From positions 35,380-62,052 of the forward strand of contig NW_003145287.1 of NCBI RefSeq assembly GCF_000003605.2: a stretch of 26,673 bases of DNA, written 5' to 3'. Every line of letters begins with the position of its first letter. Position 1 is the first letter of the stretch. Source of the DNA: Saccoglossus kowalevskii (Eukaryota; Hemichordata; Enteropneusta; Harrimaniidae). Under the pieces are notes generated by a model. The model was not told where the DNA came from. It searched no databases and saw nothing but the letters and a program-made list of their open reading frames with translations. The position numbers and the translations under genes were made by a program. Below, in pieces: positions 3,419 to 18,912 of the stretch.

Positions 3419-3940
3419 GCGCACTGATTGGGCGAACTCGAAAGAATAAGCGCGCACTGATTGGGCGAACTCGAAAGAATAAGCGCGCACTGATTGGGCG
3501 AACTCGAAAGAATAAGCGCGCACTGATTGGGCGAACTCGAAAGAATAAGCGCGCACTGATTGGGCGAACTCCAAAGAATAAGCGCGCACTGATTGGGCGA
3601 ACTCGAAAAAATAAGCGCGCACTGATTGGGCGAACTCGAAAGAATAAGCGCGCACTGATTGGGCGAACTCGAAAGAATAAGCGCGCACTGATTGGGCGAA
3701 CTCGAAAGAATAAGCGCGCACTGATTGGGCGAACTCCAAAGAATAAGCGCGCACTGATTGGGCGAACTCGAAAGAATAAGCGCGCACTGATTAGGCGAAC
3801 TCGAAAGAATAAGCGCGCACTGATTGGGCGAACTCGAAAGAATAAGCGCGCACTGATTGGGCGAACTCGAAAGAATAAGCGCGCAGTGATTGGGCGAACT
3901 CGAAAGAATAAGCGCGCACTGATTGGGCGAACTCGAAAGC
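3419..3940. repeat. 33-bp minisatellite, about 16 copies
   Basis: Near-perfect tandem copies of a 33-bp unit with the core gcgcgcactgattgggcgaa followed by ctcgaaagaataa. Copies differ at single positions, for example ctccaaag in two copies, gattaggc in one and gcgcagtg in one. Because 33 is divisible by three and the unit lacks stops in two minus-strand frames, long repetitive open frames arise by periodicity. I do not treat those as proteins. Every unit carries ATTGG, the reverse complement of a CCAAT box (ATTAGG in one copy). Confidence 0.95.
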
Positions 3941-4437: not shown

Positions 4438-5838
4438 TCATACATCCAGTCTGTGCCATATTGTCCATGTATCATCGGTAATTACGTCTTTAGTTCCATA
4501 GTAGATATAACGTGCGATCTCCCCGACCGTATTGTTCATGGTTTTAATGTTTTCAGAATTTGGAAGTGGCTGTCTGTTCGCTACTGTTTGTTTATGGTAA
4601 AAATGTATACTATATCTAGGGAGATCCCAGTCCATGGGACTGAAATATTCCATCACCCAGTCATCACAGTGGTTGATATTCCGGTTAAAGCTGAAGAGCT
4701 CTATGTGTAGTAGATCCCGGTGTTTAAACGCCATATTATTAGCATCCCATACTGATGTGCAGGCGAAACAGCGAGGTTGGAAATTCCGGTAGCTCTCGTA
4801 GTACATGCGCAGATACTCTGAGTTTTTATTCGCTAAAATGACGTTGTTGCTGAGTCTGCCGTCACCGGGCCGGTTTGCGACATAATCGTAGTAGCGTAGC
4901 GATTCGAACGGTTTAAACAACCATATATCAAGGTCGAAATACACGCCACCGTACTGCAATAAAGCCTGCAAGCGCAAAACATCTGATTTGTGGTTGATTA
5001 TTCTAATTTTAATCCCAAAAATGGATTCCGGCGTTTCGTGGTGAACGATCTCCAACACGGGGATACGTTTCGCTTCGTTCCACCAGTAACCTTGCGGCTC
5101 AGGGTCACAGTCGGTGTGAAACAGCATTCTGTCTGGCTTCATTGTACGGTATACACTAACGATACTGATTAAGTTGTAGAATTCGAAATCCGGGCACCCG
5201 ACCCACGTGAAATGGGCAATATTGGGTACTACTGGGTGATCATTCGGTTTGAGCTTCCCGAGAAACCACTGAATAGATTCCGGTTCAAAATTTGTTGACG
5301 TGTTCCATTTTAATATCCGCTCTGTCGCACTACCTTCGAGAGAGAACAAGTTTCGCCGTGGACATACCCTCCCTTTTTTGAACTTTTTAACAGAAACGTC
5401 TTTCGTTTTCCCGGTTTCTGTCTGTTTGGTGTGTTTTGAATTCGTTTTCACTACAATATTTCGCTGCATTCCATCGTCTTCAATGATACCCTCGTCAGAA
5501 TCACCATCGCTGACGTCATTTTCCAACACATCACCCGGATAACCAACATCGGAACGAACCGTCGACGTGCTCTCAGTCGTCGGCGTTGCTATTATCGTAG
5601 AAAAGTCTTCCTCAGTGTTCCATTGTGACCCAACGTGATACGTCCTCTCAGTTGAATCCGCCCCGTGTTGTTCCATGTCTGTCCGCTCCATCTCAGTGTT
5701 ATCCTGTTTCGGTTTATGTCGTCTGTGTAACAATGAACCAATCACCAACATCACAATAACCCCAATACACAATAAGATGTTGAATCTCCTGCCGATAGAG
5801 AAATACCTGGCCACTGCGCGTCGTGGCGAAGACATCAT
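4438..5838 (-). CDS. type II membrane glycosyltransferase with DXD motif (Gly_transf_sug / GT32-like)
   Basis: An intronless 466-residue open frame opening on two ATGs in a row. Residues 1-18 are basic and cytosolic-like. Residues about 19-37 form a single hydrophobic anchor followed by basic residues, typical of a Golgi type II enzyme. Residues about 40-165 are a Ser/Thr/Asp/Glu-rich stem with an acidic run near 107-122. The catalytic part starts near 203 (VPNIAHFTWVG), which matches the opening strand of OCH1-like sugar-binding-DXD transferases. The core SDVLRLQALLQYGGVYFDLD at 285-304 holds the metal and nucleotide-sugar binding DXD (D302-L-D304). Likely N-glycosylation sequons lie at N179 and N435. 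The family transfers a sugar from a nucleotide sugar to glycans or lipids in the Golgi. The donor and acceptor cannot be told from sequence; alpha-1,4-galactosyl/GlcNAc transferase-like and bacterial-type GT32 are both possible. Lack of introns suggests retroposition or a lineage-specific single-exon family. Confidence 0.88.
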   Translation of the reverse strand: MMSSPRRAVARYFSIGRRFNILLCIGVIVMLVIGSLLHRRHKPKQDNTEMERTDMEQHGADSTERTYHVGSQWNTEEDFSTIIATPTTESTSTVRSDVGYPGDVLENDVSDGDSDEGIIEDDGMQRNIVVKTNSKHTKQTETGKTKDVSVKKFKKGRVCPRRNLFSLEGSATERILKWNTSTNFEPESIQWFLGKLKPNDHPVVPNIAHFTWVGCPDFEFYNLISIVSVYRTMKPDRMLFHTDCDPEPQGYWWNEAKRIPVLEIVHHETPESIFGIKIRIINHKSDVLRLQALLQYGGVYFDLDIWLFKPFESLRYYDYVANRPGDGRLSNNVILANKNSEYLRMYYESYRNFQPRCFACTSVWDANNMAFKHRDLLHIELFSFNRNINHCDDWVMEYFSPMDWDLPRYSIHFYHKQTVANRQPLPNSENIKTMNNTVGEIARYIYYGTKDVITDDTWTIWHRLDV

Positions 5839-8640: not shown

Positions 8641-9245
8641 AAACACTTTATTTTTTCAAAATGGAATTATTTTGTCCATGTTTATTTCATTTATGCACGA
8701 AATGTGTGATAATGTAGTATTGTTATGATAATACAGCAGGAAAACGTGTTATCGTGGGATATGCCTTCTGAAGTCAAAAACAAGACGCCATCTACGGCGA
8801 AATTTGGAGAATGGCGTGAAAAGACAAGCGGTGGGCTTCACGAACAGTATTTTTTTTACCGTTTTTTATCAAACAATATTCATGGGAATGACTGGGTCAG
8901 AGAGAGATAACACTATTTGCCAGTGAGTCACCAGTGGCACTGGGTAGACCAGTGAGTCGATATTATATCCACTGGTGCACTGGGCTTACCAGCGAGTCAG
9001 TGAGATAATATTATCTCCACAGTGGCACTGGGCGGACCAGCTAGTCAGTGAGATAATATTATCTCCACAGTGGCACTGGGCGGACCAGTTAGTCAGTGAG
9101 ATAATATCATCTCCACAGTGGCATTGGGCGGACCAGCGAGTCAGTGGGATAATATTATCTCCACAGTGGCACTGGGCGGACCAGCTAGACGGTGAGATAA
9201 TATTATCTCACAGGTGCACTGGGCGGACCAGCTAGACAGTGAGAT
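8641..9245 (+). repeat. left terminal inverted repeat
   Basis: The outer about 290 bases are unique sequence and pair in reverse complement with 12740-13036. The inner part is a tandem array of 48-bp units. A short frame open in both arms (near 8725-8910 and 12745-12951) reflects arm identity and is not taken as a gene. Confidence 0.8.
8921..9245 (+). repeat. 48-bp subterminal tandem repeat, about 6 copies
   Basis: Units read approximately cagtgagataatattatctc then cacagtggcactgggcggac then cagctagt. Each contains the palindrome gagataatattatctc. The first copies are more degenerate. The unit length is a multiple of three, giving an artefactual open frame across the array. Confidence 0.9.
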
Positions 9246-9939
9246 GCCGGCATGAGGGATCGACCATTTGGTATCGTTGGGTTAGCTGGAAGATTTGTTT
9301 GAACAACACAGAAAAACAATTACACTGGTCACACTCTTTCACCACCCCACCCCCATGATTTCAAATATTTGACTCTTAGTGCATTTTTGTAATAAAGGTA
9401 AGGAGCTCAGTATGTTAATAAACTCCCTAAGTTTATAGTAGTTTGTCGCATGATATGCTTTTATTCGCCATGTTCAATTATGTTAGGCATGTGTGTGTGT
9501 GCAAAGAACAGCATTTACATCTAACTAAGGTAATAATTTCATTGCTAAGGGATTAGCTCCAAATGTTAGTAAATCAACAGGTATATATTGAATGAGGTCT
9601 TCATTGTAAGTTAATTTAACCTAAGACAGTTTACACATACATTAAAACTTGTATTCAGTTCAAACTTTATTGTATCATCCCAACAATGGTCAGTTGAAAA
9701 ACTGTTAAATAGTATTGAAAACAAATAAATTGTATTACAAAACTCTGATATTTCCAAGGAACTAAATAAATTATTTGAACAACAGTGAAACAATTGAAAA
9801 AAAAAAAAAAAAGCAGGGAGTAAAATCAAGGAAGTTGTAATGATTTGTTTAAATGAACAACTATGTAAAAAATTCAATCCAGCTGTAACATTTTTTTTAA
9901 TAATAGAAGTCAAGCAGAAAAGGATAACAACATTTTGGG
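9246..9939. other. interior of element, no gene recognised
   Basis: No supported coding sequence. TTTATT at 9666-9671 reads as AATAAA on the minus strand, about 270 bases past the stop of the minus-strand fragment that ends at 9940, and could be its polyadenylation signal. Poly-A runs occur near 9798-9812. Confidence 0.45.
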
Positions 9940-10300
9940 TTACACATTTTCATAAATTTGCTTAATTTTGTTCAATGTGTCCTTTCTTAACTGCGACCCT
10001 GCTGTTAAGTTAAACCCAAAGTCAATGATATCTTTCAAATCTACATCTTCTAACCATGGTTTTTTAGTTGCACCTTTTCCAATATACCAAGGCATAATCT
10101 TTGATGTATACGTTCTACTTTTATACCAGTGTATTCGGATCATATGACCATTCACAGACTGAACACATCCTATTTGAGGATAACATCCCTGATATGATAA
10201 TAAATTCGTAGCAACCATGTCTCCAACCTCAACACCAATGCTCTGTTTCTTGATTGCCGCTTTCAGTCATTTTGTAATAGGTTTTCCGAGGTTTACCTAA
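9940..10300 (-). pseudogene. tudor/SH3-like domain fragment, frame-broken
   Basis: The minus-strand frame from 10218 to the stop at 9940 encodes 92 residues beginning MVATNLLSYQGCYPQIGCVQ. It has the cadence of a small beta-barrel (GD-MVAT, IGCVQSVNGHMIRIHWY, then a PW motif) and a basic, helical C-terminus (LRKDTLNKIKQIY). The same frame is open slightly upstream. A different frame reading KPRKTYYKMTESG begins just after a possible acceptor (tattattag) near 10298. The two frames look like one coding stretch broken by a single extra base near 10265-10270. Such barrels often occur at the C-terminus of transposon proteins. I cannot name the family. Sequencing error rather than a true lesion is possible. 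Confidence 0.5.
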
Positions 10301-10855
10301 TAATAAAATATAGTTCAGAATAGTTATTTAAAATGAAACATGCTGTGTAAAAATAAATACAACAACCAACTGAGAATATATGTCATATAAAAACCTGTAT
10401 GTATACACACAGAGCAGTGTGTTGTCAAGTCACCTAAAATTATATCTCTTTTTTTGAATTTTCAAATCATATAGAATCTTTTATTTTATCATTTTTAGTG
10501 ATAAAAAGACTTTCTCACATCTTTTTGAAAACCACTAGACCATTGGATGAACAATTGTCAAATTGATTGATTCCTTCCTCTATCAGACTACAGTAATTCA
10601 TTTAAAATATTCTATTACTAGTATCCTGACTGATTGATTTTATATTGTTTTCTCATAATGCATCTGAAACAGCATAAATATGTCAGCTGACTGACTGGTT
10701 GAATTATACTTACTCCTTGTAATATTAATGTACTGGTAGTGGGAGAATAAGTATTTTTTTAATGATTCTTCATTTATATTTTCAAGGTTTACATTACTTG
10801 GATTGAGAACTAGTTCTGATAATTATTTATTTATTATTTGTTTGTTTTTTTACAG
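10301..10855. other. divergent interval between the two element genes; no exon found
   Basis: AT-rich sequence between the minus-strand fragment and the + strand methylase-like exon. Because the + strand exon at 10856 starts at a splice acceptor, a 5' exon should lie upstream, but I cannot identify one here. Confidence 0.4.
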
Positions 10856-11697
10856 CAAAACATGGTGTTTTTGTGAATATAAAGTTCCTGATGATGTGCA
10901 GAAAACAAATCTGTGGTTGAAAAAAGATTTAATGGATCAACTGTTGAAAGTATATACTAAACCTGGTGGTACTGTATTATGTGTTAATGTAGGAAATGGT
11001 ATGTTTCTTCACATTAACCTGATAGAAGTGTCTTCACTAACTAAATAGCAAAAATATTATAAACTATGATTAATAATTAATTCACTACATTAAGCCATAC
11101 TTACCTCACACCTTATTAGTAAAAAGATATCCATTGAAAATTTTGAGCATTACTCGATTCATGCCCAATTACATTTCATTTGAATCACAATTCAAAACAG
11201 ACTAACAGTGGGTAGATGTAGTTTGTATAGAACCCATTCTAACAATTTCAGGTATCAATGAGAGCATACTTTAATATAGTTTATCATTGTAATAACAGCT
11301 TAATCTTTTTTTTTATATTTCAGTGAGTGCAGTAAAATCATGCATAGAACACTATACCAATTGTATTTATTTGATGGAAGAAACCACTAACACACTTGAA
11401 TGTGCTAAAATGTATGAAATCCTGGATATTTATACCAAAAGCAGTGATGAGCCAGAAGACAGTGTGACAGAGCCTGAAGCCAGTGTGACAGAGCCTGAAG
11501 CCAGTGTGACAGAGACAGAAGCCAGTGTGACAGAACCAGAAGCCAGTGTGACAGAGACAGAAGCCAGTGTGACAGAGACAGAAGCCAGTGTGACAGAGAC
11601 AGAAGCCAGTGTGATAGAATCTAACAAAACAGTGAAAGAAGAAAAAAATGAAATATACAATTTCTATGATGACAGCGATGATCTATTCAACCAATAA
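10856..11697 (+). CDS. methylase-like C-terminal domain with acidic repeat tail (two exons, 5' end missing)
   Basis: Exon a is 10856-10998 (acceptor tttttttacag, donor GTATGT). Exon b is 11324-11697 (acceptor tatatttcag, stop TAA). They join in phase 1 and give about 171 residues. The pattern KKDLMDQLLKVYTKPGGTVL, then a hydrophobic strand, a helix, NCIYLME and an Ala-Lys-Met helix, matches the last third of beta-class N4-cytosine/N6-adenine DNA methyltransferases, which have LxxxLIxxYTxPGDxVLDPFxGSGTT then GRxxIGIE. The SAM-binding DPFxGSG is replaced by CVNVGN, so activity is doubtful. The catalytic (D/S)PP(Y/W) motif would lie in unseen upstream exons. The tail is eight 7-residue E-P/T-E-A-S-V-T repeats and an acidic C-terminus (DDSDDLFNQ). 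AATAAA at 12167 is a plausible polyadenylation signal. Confidence 0.6.
11449..11616 (+). repeat. 21-bp in-frame coding repeat, 8 copies
   Basis: Eight tandem copies of a 21-bp unit (gagcctgaagccagtgtgac plus a) encode E-P/T-E-A-S-V-T. The first unit has D for A and the last ends in I. Pro/Thr alternation is a CCT or CCA versus ACA change, so units have been shuffled by unequal exchange while the reading frame was kept. Confidence 0.92.
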
Positions 11698-11784
11698 GGA
11701 CTAGATGAATCTATGAATAATAGACTAGTGAATCGGTCTTAAATGCTGTAGGTGGGCCTTATAGTTATTATAGTCATCAGTGAT

Positions 11785-11972
11785 NNNNNNNNNNNNNNNN
11801 NNNNNNNNNNNNNNNNNNNNNNNNNNNNNNNNNNNNNNNNNNNNNNNNNNNNNNNNNNNNNNNNNNNNNNNNNNNNNNNNNNNNNNNNNNNNNNNNNNNN
11901 NNNNNNNNNNNNNNNNNNNNNNNNNNNNNNNNNNNNNNNNNNNNNNNNNNNNNNNNNNNNNNNNNNNNNNNN
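11785..11972. other. assembly gap (188 N)
   Basis: A run of undetermined bases inside the element. Open frames that cross it are meaningless. The true length of the interval is unknown unless the gap was sized by read pairs. Confidence 0.99.
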
Positions 11973-12166
11973 TGACCAATATTCACTTTAACTTGAATAA
12001 CTCATTCCTTAAAAATGTAGGAATTGAATTCTCTTTTTTTCAGTTTAGTTTTTCAGTTTTTTTATATTCTTTTCTTCAGCTGCTTCATTTCTATAATTTT
12101 CAATATTTAAATTAGGATAATCATCAGTTTTTCTACAACACTAATTTTAAATCTGTTATATGTTTC

Positions 12167-12172
12167 AATAAA
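12167..12172 (+). terminator. polyadenylation signal AATAAA
   Basis: AATAAA followed by a T-rich stretch, about 470 bases past the stop of the methylase-like gene (including the gap). Position and context fit the 3' end of that transcript. Confidence 0.5.
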
Positions 12173-12632
12173 AGTTTAATTTTTGTACAAGAAAAATTCT
12201 AATAAATGTAGTTACGTTATTTTATTGGTGTATAAACAGTCATATTATGTATAAATATACAAGTTTTATTTTAAACACAGTCTCCCGGGGATAGAATAAA
12301 CATAGTTTACATCGTGATTTAGAGAGGCCGTAATGCATACAACCACTTTCGATCGTAAATATACTCTCAACGCGACAAAGGGATTCCCTTCATCTTTATA
12401 AATATTTATATATTCAATGGTAGTTGAATCAAACTGGCAGCCAGTCAATAAATGATAACATAACAACTTGAAGCCCAATGACGTCATTTAAAAACATAAA
12501 ATTTATAAAGATAAAATAATGAGAGTAATGAAATCAAACTATAAAGATAAATAAGATGTTCATGTTGACATTCTGTTGTGTATACTGTGACATGTGCCAA
12601 TGATATATATTAAACATTCAAAACACGAACAA

Positions 12633-13036
12633 TCTCACCGTCTAGCTGGTCCGCCCAGTGCCACTGTGGAGATAATATTATCTCACTGACTCGCTGGTCC
12701 GCCCAGTGGATATAATATCGACTCACTGGTCTACCCAAATAGTGTTATCTCTCTCTGACCCAGTCATTCCCACAGGCGCCTGTGGTCATTCCCATGAATA
12801 TTGTTTGATAAAAAACGGTAAAAAAATACTGTTTGTGAAGCCCACCGCTTGTCTTTTCACGCCATTCTCCAAATTTCGCCATAGGTGGCGTCTTGTTTTT
12901 GACTTCAGAAGGCATATCCCATGATAACACGTTTTCCTGCTGTATTATCATAACAATACTACATTATCACACATTTCGTGCATAAATGAAATAAACATGG
13001 ACAAAATAATTCCATTTTGAAATAAATAAAGTGTTT
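12633..13036 (-). repeat. right terminal inverted repeat
   Basis: Reverse complement of the left arm. It carries only about two of the 48-bp units (12633-12730) against about six on the left. It has one small extra segment around 12763-12794 absent from the left arm, and scattered base differences elsewhere. The outer end is ...AAAGTGTT followed by TAAA. Confidence 0.8.
12763..12794. repeat. short duplication creating a palindrome in the right arm
   Basis: gtcattccca occurs twice, at 12763-12772 and 12785-12794. The junction between the copies forms the perfect 16-bp palindrome ccacaggcgcctgtgg (12770-12785). The left arm has a single gtcattccca here, so this is a later, right-arm-specific insertion. 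Confidence 0.8.
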
Positions 13037-13345: not shown

Positions 13346-13367
13346 TTTGACCTTTTATCCACTTAAA

Positions 13368-15137
13368 ATGGCGGAAGAGTTGTTTCGTTGGGATGCACAC
13401 GGAAATAAAAAGAGAATGCCGTGGAGTGTTAAAGTTCTGTCACGTCTCAATGAACAGAGAGACAAAACTATGTTCTGTGACATGATTGTAACCGTTGATG
13501 GGCATGAATTCAACGCACACAAATGCATGCTGGCTGCTTGTAGTCCTTACTTCGAGTCACTTTTCCGTAGCAACTTAATGGAAGCCCGGACGGGTAAAGT
13601 TGACCTTCAATGTACTTCGGTTGAAGGGATGCAGTCCATTTTGAATTACATGTATACTGGTGAGATAGAACTTAGCATGGATACCGTGGAAGACATTATT
13701 AGCGGCGCAGACCATCTGTTATTGACAAGACTGAAGCGAATTTGTGAGAAATTCATCGTGCAAGGTACTGCATCCAGTTATCGTTGTTTGCGGGCCTTGC
13801 AGTTAGTAGAGGCATACAACCTTGAAAAATGGGTGAGTAACATGGCGAATATGGTCTTAGCCAGGCGATTTTCCGAGGTACTACAAGACAAACAGTGTCA
13901 GCCACTTATAATGGAGCTTTCTGCTGACAGATTGTGTGATGTATTGTCACATGATAAGATGACGGTCAAAAAAGAAGAGGATTTGTTTGAATTTATTGTG
14001 AAATGGACGAATCATGCACCCACAGAGCGAGCACAACAGTTTACTAAATTGCTGAGTAAATTACATCTCATTGATGTCGATAAAAGTTATCTGATTGACT
14101 GCATACAGGAAGAGCCTCTAGTTCAGCAAAGTATGGAATCTAGAAAGTACTTTACAGAAGCTCTTCGATACCATTTGTTGCCAAACAGAGTAGATGTCAA
14201 GGGAAAATTAAAGCCACAGTTAAAGCCTCGCACAACCAGATTGATGGATATAATTATTTGTGTTGATAAACTTGGTGGTTGTTTATATAGTTATGTACTT
14301 GAGGAAAATGAATGGATGTCCTGTGGTACAAGTTCAAGAACAGAACAGACACCCTGTTATGCTGGTGTAAAATTAGGAAATCTGCTCTTGTGTGCTAAGC
14401 AGAGAAGAACTTGCGGAGGGGAAAAAAATATGTATGATCCTTTGAGTAATAGTTTTATAGATGGTGCTGGCACAAAACACGAGTATGGACAAGGCTCTGC
14501 AGTTGTGTCTAATGGTAAGATATACACATTTGGGGGTGGTCCACATTGTCAATCAGTGGAAATGTTTGACCCTGATAATAACGGCTGGATAGAGAAACCA
14601 TCGATTCCTAGAGAACCAGGTTATATTCTACACACGGCTGCCACTAAGGATGGGCATATCTACGTCATATGTTATGAAAACAATCGTTTTCTGACAGTTT
14701 GGTGTCTTGATAGAGATGATATGTGGACTTGTGTACTTGAATATCGAGGCATTGAAATAAAAGAAGTTCAACCAACATCTTGCATTCAGCCATGCATTTC
14801 AATTGAATCGTTAAACGGGATTGAAGTGGAACTACCAGGTAAACAGAAAGTCGTCATCTCAAATGACCCTAACCATGAGGTATGCATCAAAGATTCCACA
14901 ATGCCGCAAATTCCTTTTCCGAGAATTAATGCTGGTATATGCAATGTAAATGGGGACATCTACGTCTGTGGTGGTCTTGCAAAGAGAGAACACTACACCA
15001 AGTTTGGTGACACTAACTCTGTGTGTATGTTTAATTCCTCCAAACAGATATGGAAGAATTTACCCAGCATGCCAAGGAGAGCAGAGATTGTAGGGTGTGC
15101 CTTGTTTCAGTCACCGCATGAAGTTTACTCTCCTTGA
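13368..15137 (+). CDS. kelch-like protein (BTB-BACK-kelch), putative CUL3 adaptor
   Basis: Intronless frame of 589 residues from the ATG at 13368 (context aaaATGG, A at -3). The frame remains open upstream to a TTG at 13290, and an ATG at 13323 has a poor context; the upstream residues are hydrophobic and unlike the family, so I place the start at 13368. The BTB domain is about residues 25-130 (FCDMIVTVDGHEFNAHKCML, then YFESLF, then ILNYMYTGEI). The BACK/3-box region is about 135-265. Kelch beta-propeller repeats run from about 293 to 580, with recognisable GKIYTFGG near 383 and GDIYVCGG near 529; central blades are degenerate. The usual length is 570-620 residues. Such proteins dimerise through BTB, bind cullin-3 and present substrates to the ubiquitin ligase, with the propeller giving specificity. 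The exact orthologue is not assignable. The single-exon structure is unusual but known in this family. Confidence 0.93.
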   Translation: MAEELFRWDAHGNKKRMPWSVKVLSRLNEQRDKTMFCDMIVTVDGHEFNAHKCMLAACSPYFESLFRSNLMEARTGKVDLQCTSVEGMQSILNYMYTGEIELSMDTVEDIISGADHLLLTRLKRICEKFIVQGTASSYRCLRALQLVEAYNLEKWVSNMANMVLARRFSEVLQDKQCQPLIMELSADRLCDVLSHDKMTVKKEEDLFEFIVKWTNHAPTERAQQFTKLLSKLHLIDVDKSYLIDCIQEEPLVQQSMESRKYFTEALRYHLLPNRVDVKGKLKPQLKPRTTRLMDIIICVDKLGGCLYSYVLEENEWMSCGTSSRTEQTPCYAGVKLGNLLLCAKQRRTCGGEKNMYDPLSNSFIDGAGTKHEYGQGSAVVSNGKIYTFGGGPHCQSVEMFDPDNNGWIEKPSIPREPGYILHTAATKDGHIYVICYENNRFLTVWCLDRDDMWTCVLEYRGIEIKEVQPTSCIQPCISIESLNGIEVELPGKQKVVISNDPNHEVCIKDSTMPQIPFPRINAGICNVNGDIYVCGGLAKREHYTKFGDTNSVCMFNSSKQIWKNLPSMPRRAEIVGCALFQSPHEVYSP

Positions 15138-17150: not shown

Positions 17151-17540
17151 ACATAATCTACCGTAATTAGTCCCCGTTCGAATGCAGTCTGAAAATGGTA
17201 ACCTCTGTGCGGCACCTGTTCAAAATTGTCAAGAACCAATCACAAGACTGGTTACGAACGAGTTGAGCTAGGCTAACCGAATCGTAATTGCGGTGTGGCT
17301 CGTAACATAATCTACCGTAATTAGTCCCCGTTCGAATGCAGTCTGAAAATGGTAACCTCTGTGCGGCACCTGTTCAAAATTTTCAAGAACCAATCACAAG
17401 ACTGGTTACGAACGAGTTGAGCTAGGCTAACCGAATCGTAATCTCTGTGGCTCGTAACCAGTCTTATGATTGGTTGTTGACACATTCTGAACAGGCCACG
17501 CCTCCAACTGTGCCGTGCGTTCGGGCCAACCGTTAATTAA
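17151..17540. mobile_element. foldback element with internal 154-bp tandem duplication
   Basis: 17151-17304 and 17305-17457 are near-identical direct copies, both starting acataatctaccgtaattag. The following arm, 17451-17540, is a diverged reverse complement of part of the same unit (ctcgtaaccagtcttatgat versus atcacaagactggttacgaa on the other strand). The whole fits a MITE with inverted ends whose left part has been duplicated. A gttcgaatgc segment resembles a pol III B box, but I find no matching A box. Confidence 0.7.
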
Positions 17541-18639: not shown

Positions 18640-18912
18640 GAATCCAACCAATGCTGAGGCAGTTTAGATATCCATAAATGTAGTTACTTTTAGTATCCAA
18701 TCACAGCAGCTCTTACTGTTATGGTACAATCCAATCAATAGTGAGGCAGCTTAGATACTATCCAATCACAGCAGCTCTTACTGTTATGGTACAATCCAAT
18801 CAATAGTGAGGCAGCTTAGATACTATCTAATCACAGCAGCTCTTACTGTTATGGTACAATCCAATCAATAGTGAGGCAGCTTAGATACTATCCAATCACA
18901 GCAGCTCTTATC
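18640..18912. repeat. 65-bp tandem repeat, about 4 copies
   Basis: Period is exactly 65 bases, judged from gcagctctta at 18706, 18771, 18836 and 18901. A degenerate partial copy lies at the left edge. Internal copies differ at very few positions (for example tatctaatc versus tatccaatc). Each unit contains two CCAAT motifs on the + strand (atccaatca). Confidence 0.93.

Follow-up and report, generated by a model that had tools for sequence, protein, structure and literature searches.

A transposon copy of Saccoglossus kowalevskii with the remnant of a putative DUF7869-type gene and an opposite-strand methylase-like gene

Several described mobile elements carry genes for DNA-modification enzymes. 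The 21.5-kb element Sola1-1_Ec32 of the brown alga Ectocarpus encodes a ParB-like domain and a predicted N4/N6 methylase (PMC12477816), viral Mariner elements carry methyltransferase genes, and Sola2 elements create 4-bp duplications (PMC3627910). Fungal DNA transposons carry TET/JBP dioxygenase genes (PMC12730594), whilst N4CMT of bdelloids is an active host gene with SPPY and a chromodomain, of a type reported as absent from other sequenced eukaryotes (PMC8885841). Here we analyse a 26,673-nucleotide stretch of the genome of the hemichordate Saccoglossus kowalevskii (the window), and within it an element of 4,394 bp, at positions 8642-13035. This element probably belongs to a family of cut-and-paste type DNA transposons and is a non-autonomous copy that has undergone an internal deletion; the fuller form would carry divergent DUF7869 and methylase-like genes between long arms.

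Like Sola1-1_Ec32, the window element is a DNA transposon with a methylase-type gene opposite the putative transposase strand; it differs in its animal host, in the absence of a ParB-like part from what was seen, in a degenerate S-adenosylmethionine (AdoMet) motif, and in having DUF7869 as its sole transposase candidate (PMC12477816). With the viral Mariner elements it shares the pairing of a transposon and a gene of methyltransferase type, although the viral elements have a Mariner transposase and an endonuclease and are integrated in viruses (PMC3627910). The second gene of the fungal TET/JBP transposons is likewise a DNA-modification enzyme, but a dioxygenase, accompanied by other transposase groups and found in fungal hosts (PMC12730594). 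Bdelloid N4CMT resembles the putative methylase described here in that it is found in an animal and is of the permuted N6_N4 type, with the AdoMet part after the catalytic part, whereas the present gene is transposon-borne and degenerate (PMC8885841).

Ends, arms and genomic copies of the element

The inverted arms of the element align over a longest ungapped match of 216 nt at 96% identity (8651-8866 with 12810-13025), and their pairing continues via perfect stretches of 42 and 37 nt to reach 8919 and 12736. The local alignment of the arms scores 644, as compared to a maximum of 29 across 50 shuffles, and the right arm bears a 22-bp insertion relative to the left. Next to the left arm lies a subterminal tandem array of approximately six 48-bp copies, and the right side holds 77 nt of this repeat (approximately 1.5 units, 12632-12708; two units at most). 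Six units, five on the left and one on the right, contain a 16-bp palindrome, GAGATAATATTATCTC, with a single mismatch in two of them, against 0.01 expected in the window. When the outer ends of other loci were aligned, the base preceding AACACTTTATTT was found to differ among them, which fixes the element end at 8642/13035 and leaves a TAAA outside each arm.

We searched the genome to which the window belongs (572 Mb, 4,830 contigs) with a 260-bp arm query, scoring 40 of 73 candidates, so that the match count is a lower bound. At least 47 arm matches were obtained on 37 contigs; two are the window's own arms and 45 lie outside the window, on 36 other contigs. Stretches from 34 of these 36 contigs were examined (L102-L118, L119-L132 and L136-L138), and both ends were visible at six of the 34 loci: L105 (871 bp), and L113, L115, L117, L120 and L121 (approximately 160-195 bp), with the ends of L115 read by eye and those of L113 and L121 by script. 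At L103 and L107, the remainder of the copy is obscured by N; L103 (contig C1415) presents a near-identical right third of the window element (99% over 662 bp) followed by the arm, with the rest within a long stretch of N. Across the seven complete elements, a perfect 4-bp duplication flanks four (window TAAA, L105 GGGT, L117 AGAA, L120 TATG), and a duplication with one mismatch flanks three (L113, L115 and L121). Insertion creates a 4-bp duplication, and a target sequence preference is not obvious. The 45 outside matches, together with perfect duplications in three other complete copies, therefore define a transposon family, of which the window element is a genuine copy; the same 45 matches led us to reject the arms as a local artefact.

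A sequence-only reading of the window had described inverted arms of about 300 bases, subterminal 48-bp arrays, a TAAA outside both ends and two decaying genes in a transposon-like unit of about 4.4 kb, and had asked that copy ends be aligned to define duplications and that arms be sought beyond this locus. Each of these descriptions holds, the decay being visible in the in-frame stop and the missing exon sequence reported below, and the arms are not confined to this locus. The assembly gap and the 21-bp coding repeat listed in Table 1 were absent from that description.

Terminal inverted repeats with one fixed end in several copies are present, as in Class II elements. Elements of the foldback class typically combine long inverted arms and tandem repeats, and at the level of this class trait the window element, with its long inverted repeats and internal tandem repeats, resembles foldback elements such as Tetris. 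Judging by anatomy, we rejected a DIRS-like reading, since neither the ends and duplications nor the genes present are those of DIRS elements. Many further copies (L106, L108, L114, L116, L123-L132 and others) are 92-99% identical and have one exact end, AACACTTT, but at variable points within the arm they give way to unrelated sequence, a pattern suggestive of frequent truncation on one side or of repair that was aborted. Searches of viral contigs with two DNA patterns, and of genome contigs with one pattern, gave zero matches.

A candidate transposase gene and the related copy on contig C3288

On the minus strand of the element, an open reading frame (ORF) at 9943-10266 opens immediately after an in-frame stop. 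This ORF had zero matches in Pfam, PHROGs, NCBIfam and PADLOC, and PDB matches at chance level only (best E 0.089). Its relatives were found at six other places in its own genome (28-34% identity, best E 2.5e-9), and on contig C1554 the exons upstream of the relative, on the same strand, match Pfam DUF7869 (PF25273) at E 7e-30 and 3e-14. On three of four other contigs (C3194, C1554 and C1340), DUF7869 is followed on its own strand, after approximately 1.6-7 kb, by the C-terminal relative. The window ORF and DUF7869 genes thus have a C-terminal domain in common and, judged by this homology, the ORF encodes the C-terminal portion of a protein of DUF7869 type. At L144, two C-terminal domains lie slightly more than 1 kb apart.

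A DUF7869 profile search of the genome revealed 30 matches, as compared to none in any of 14 control genomes; stop codons lie within 12 of the 30, of which some may be introns. No DUF7869 domain was found inside the window element, the window's contig being without a match in this genome profile search; the best piece in the window (E 0.20, 8911-8976, in the terminal region) was read as chance. Stretches such as DGMD, LQLDN and THE[ND] are visible and, in our reading, may correspond to the acidic residues of a transposase of RNase H type. Viral contigs gave zero matches with either window protein or with a DUF7869 exon. An open-access literature search found no paper on DUF7869, a result that cannot establish the element as unpublished.

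Interior copies were sought by protein, by arm and by window 10560-10735, and on contig C3288 (L100) both genes occur together. There, the methylase-like gene lies on the minus strand (155270-156145) and DUF7869 on the plus strand (157771-158676), in divergent orientation. The plus-strand pieces were revealed by tblastn with the C1554 exons (E 3e-10, 7e-12 and 2e-6) and confirmed by the Pfam model (E 7.5e-19), with internal stop codons. Window 10578-10720 aligns with L100 9611-9456 at 86%, and window 10736-10882 with L100 5694-5550 at 85%; between these collinear blocks L100 holds an extra 3.76 kb, containing the DUF7869 pieces and a tandem array. For the upstream of the two stretches a near-complete match was found at C3288 only, where it runs beyond a dispersed repeat on both sides. 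This short repeat (window 10622-10701) has 12 other partial copies in the genome, at 78-91%. TGTAGTGG is present at both borders of the extra L100 stretch, which is compatible with a microhomology deletion. As the DUF7869 core is present in the related C3288 copy, its absence from the window is best read as an internal deletion, and we consider it most likely that the copy in the window is a non-autonomous derivative that arose in this way, the 3.8-kb change having presumably been a loss. The array on L100 (5817-6866, approximately 1 kb) lies between the methylase-like gene and the DUF7869 pieces, and DUF7869 is matched once more on C3288, near 133.3 kb.

Several observations weigh against this reading. 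Contig C2261 has three C-terminal relatives (L141, L144 and L145), with no DUF7869 among the matches listed. The 15.7 kb read from C3288 contain no recognisable arm on the transposase side, no more than an inner piece of an arm on the other side, and no match to the window minus-strand ORF. Nowhere did we find a complete copy in which the two arms enclose both genes. That DUF7869 acts as a DDE transposase is, moreover, a candidate role.

Alternatively, the element might belong to a superfamily that already has a name and makes 4-bp duplications, for instance Sola; the transposase would then carry the DUF7869 model, and the second gene would be an accessory methylase of the known algal type. 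This is compatible with an internally deleted DUF7869 element and has an appreciable, if minor, probability. The duplications fit those of Sola2 (PMC3627910), a feature not specific to Sola, and an opposite-strand N4/N6 methylase gene is known from Sola1-1_Ec32 (PMC12477816). Against this, the pieces found show no ParB-like part, the present arms measure approximately 300 bp as opposed to 12-21 bp in the Sola2 elements of PMC3627910, and the likeness to Sola is one of described features.

The methylase-like gene

The plus-strand gene of the element is joined from two exons via a GT-AG intron (Table 1), and occurs at four genomic places (C3612, C3977, C3288 and C2444). The window gene is without part of an exon that is present in the C3977 and C3288 copies, and a further upstream exon, on C3977 and C2444 (43% identical), was not found in the window. 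Exons still further 5', which would bear on the catalytic [DNS]PP[YFW] motif, were identified in no copy. The C2444 copy is divergent, being 41% identical to a composite of the others, and aligns in the same register.

A tblastn search with the 86-aa joined peptide returned 283 phage records (best E 0.07), and the best 30 of the 283 are all annotated as DNA methylase or methyltransferase and matched in one register, with single-match E-values of 0.07-4. These matches are not independent, because 271 of the 283 records are Mycobacterium phages. Two shuffled control queries returned two records each, with no methylase. We further scored the peptide with a methylase profile made from 34 of 80 viral methylase stretches, thinned at 90% identity: it reached 19.4 bits, as compared to at most 11.4 in 20,000 shuffles and at most 9.2 in 627 window ORFs, the best-scoring of which (9.2) is the ORF holding the first exon of the methylase-like gene. 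The phage match spans the stretch before and across the AdoMet motif. Taken together, these results lend weak to moderate support to a resemblance between the predicted product and the AdoMet half of N4/N6 DNA methylases, and we regard the methylase link as plausible but unproven.

Other results speak against the link. The profile score is biased, because relatives of the peptide's own matches went into the profile, and the other copies, which were not used for it, score lower: 7.0 for L099 and 5.8 for L101, values that in each case 3 of 5000 shuffles of the copy attained, whilst L100 did not attain a reporting limit exceeded by 1046 of its 5000 shuffles. Pfam gave no methylase match, N6_N4_Mtase (PF01555) included, for the copies scanned. 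Weak matches were mostly to non-methylases (SH2, E 0.15, in Pfam; cystathionine gamma-synthase, E 0.14, in NCBIfam; Period protein, E 1.5, and methionine gamma-lyase, E 0.52, in PDB), and PHROG methyltransferase families appeared at E 0.05-0.18 only; overall, the NCBIfam, PADLOC and PDB searches gave nothing useful. A plasmid search with the 86-aa peptide returned two records, neither of them a methylase. These results, and the E-values of the phage matches listed, would be expected if the plus gene were not methylase-derived and a fast-evolving protein had matched by chance, a possibility that would leave the transposon reading unaffected. We consider such a chance match rather unlikely, given the uniform annotation and single register of those best 30 phage matches, the lack of methylases among the shuffled-query records, and the register kept by the divergent C2444 copy. 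For the last exon, weak Pfam matches (ATG16 at E 0.0063, and six others) were dismissed, being below cut-offs and mostly over the 7-aa repeats.

Methylase catalysis is doubtful. The phage glycine motif PFAGSG is replaced by CVNVGN in the window, CVNID on C2444, CMNARN on C3288 and CMYVNN on C3977, and this degeneracy in all four copies seen makes a non-catalytic role more likely, with the caveat that these copies are relics, and working copies may differ or be missing from the assembly.

Proposed origin of the copy, and other features of the window

We propose that, in its fuller form, the element had a pair of divergent genes flanked by the long inverted arms. One would encode the candidate transposase, a DUF7869 protein whose C-terminal domain is distinctive, and the other, on the opposite strand, a product similar to the half of an N4/N6 DNA methylase that binds AdoMet. 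After binding to the arms and to the 48-bp repeats with their palindromes, the DUF7869 protein would cleave the ends and integrate the element with a 4-bp duplication. The window copy would have lost approximately 3.8 kb including the DUF7869 core, and any later movement would have been in trans. The methylase-like protein was probably accessory, with a DNA-binding or regulatory role, and is likely not an active methylase in the copies seen. More broadly, it is conceivable, though doubtful, that DUF7869 proteins are the transposases of an unclassified animal superfamily, characterised by 4-bp duplications, long arms and palindromic subterminal arrays, with a divergent partner derived from bacterial N4/N6 methylases as a non-catalytic or altered DNA-binding subunit.

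It is improbable that the window instead holds a foldback or MITE-like element, served by an unrelated transposase, that captured two pieces of host genes (a DUF7869-type end and a methylase-like end). In favour of such captures, the complete copies other than the window element are short (160-871 bp), the methylase-like gene is at four places only, and its C3977 and C2444 copies have neither recognisable arms in the stretches read nor DUF7869. Against them, the joint, divergent occurrence of both genes on the older C3288 copy is unexpected for independent captures, and DUF7869 is multicopy, with the stop codons and possible introns noted above.

For the sequence-only reading, this means that an element with no recognisable transposase gives way to one with a DUF7869-type C-terminus, the core of which is present on C3288. 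Of its methylase cargo, the likeness to a DNA-methylase C-terminus survives at the strength given above, and a working enzyme does not, whilst a tudor-like barrel could not be confirmed (a single-sequence AlphaFold2 model of the minus-strand ORF has a mean pLDDT of 43.5, too low for use). The suggestion that a eukaryotic element bearing a methylase might be undescribed is narrowed by algal and viral precedents, to which published descriptions of such pairing have mainly been confined (PMC12477816, PMC3627910); an animal DUF7869 element with an opposite-strand methylase-like gene may be new. The DUF7869 connection is the bolder part of the finding, as compared to the methylase link, and offers a testable transposase origin for a multicopy animal domain of unknown function. 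If true, our reading would add an animal to the algae and viruses in which transposons have been found to carry DNA-methylase-like genes, and, should the partner prove conserved yet catalytically dead, it would represent a pseudo-enzyme in transposition, bearing on why transposons retain such genes.

Table 1 Coordinates of the element's features in the window.
Feature	Position	Strand	Evidence
Left target-site duplication, TAAA	8638-8641	.	Sequence; end set by other copies
Left terminal inverted repeat, 5' start AACACTTTATTT	8642-8919	+	Repeat search, arm alignment, copy-end alignment
Left subterminal 48-bp tandem array, palindrome GAGATAATATTATCTC in five units	8960-9245	+	Tandem-repeat and palindrome counts
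3' part of candidate transposase gene; C-terminal domain common to DUF7869 genes; in-frame TGA to stop codon 9940-9942	9940-10266	-	
Probable internal-deletion junction; approximately 3.76 kb with DUF7869 here in the related C3288 copy	10720-10736	.	
Methylase-like gene, exon, shorter than in the C3977 and C3288 copies	10856-10998	+	
Methylase-like gene, last exon, with 21-bp (7-aa) coding repeats at 11449-11618 and stop codon	11324-11697	+	
Assembly gap inside the element, 188 N; corresponding stretch readable in the C1415 copy (L103)	11785-11972	.	
Right subterminal repeat units, approximately two at most	12632-12737	-	
Right terminal inverted repeat	12736-13035	-	
Right target-site duplication, TAAA	13036-13039	.	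Sequence

Outside the element, an unbroken BTB-BACK-kelch ORF lies on the plus strand approximately 330 bp to its right (13365-15137), and an unbroken minus-strand ORF at 4438-5838 contains a sugar-binding DXD glycosyltransferase domain (Gly_transf_sug, E 8e-10). The window also holds a 33-bp tandem array of 15.8 copies at 97% (3419-3939) and a 154-bp tandem duplication with an adjoining inverted piece (17151-17458); at 18694-18910, a 65-bp unit is repeated 3.3 times at 98%.

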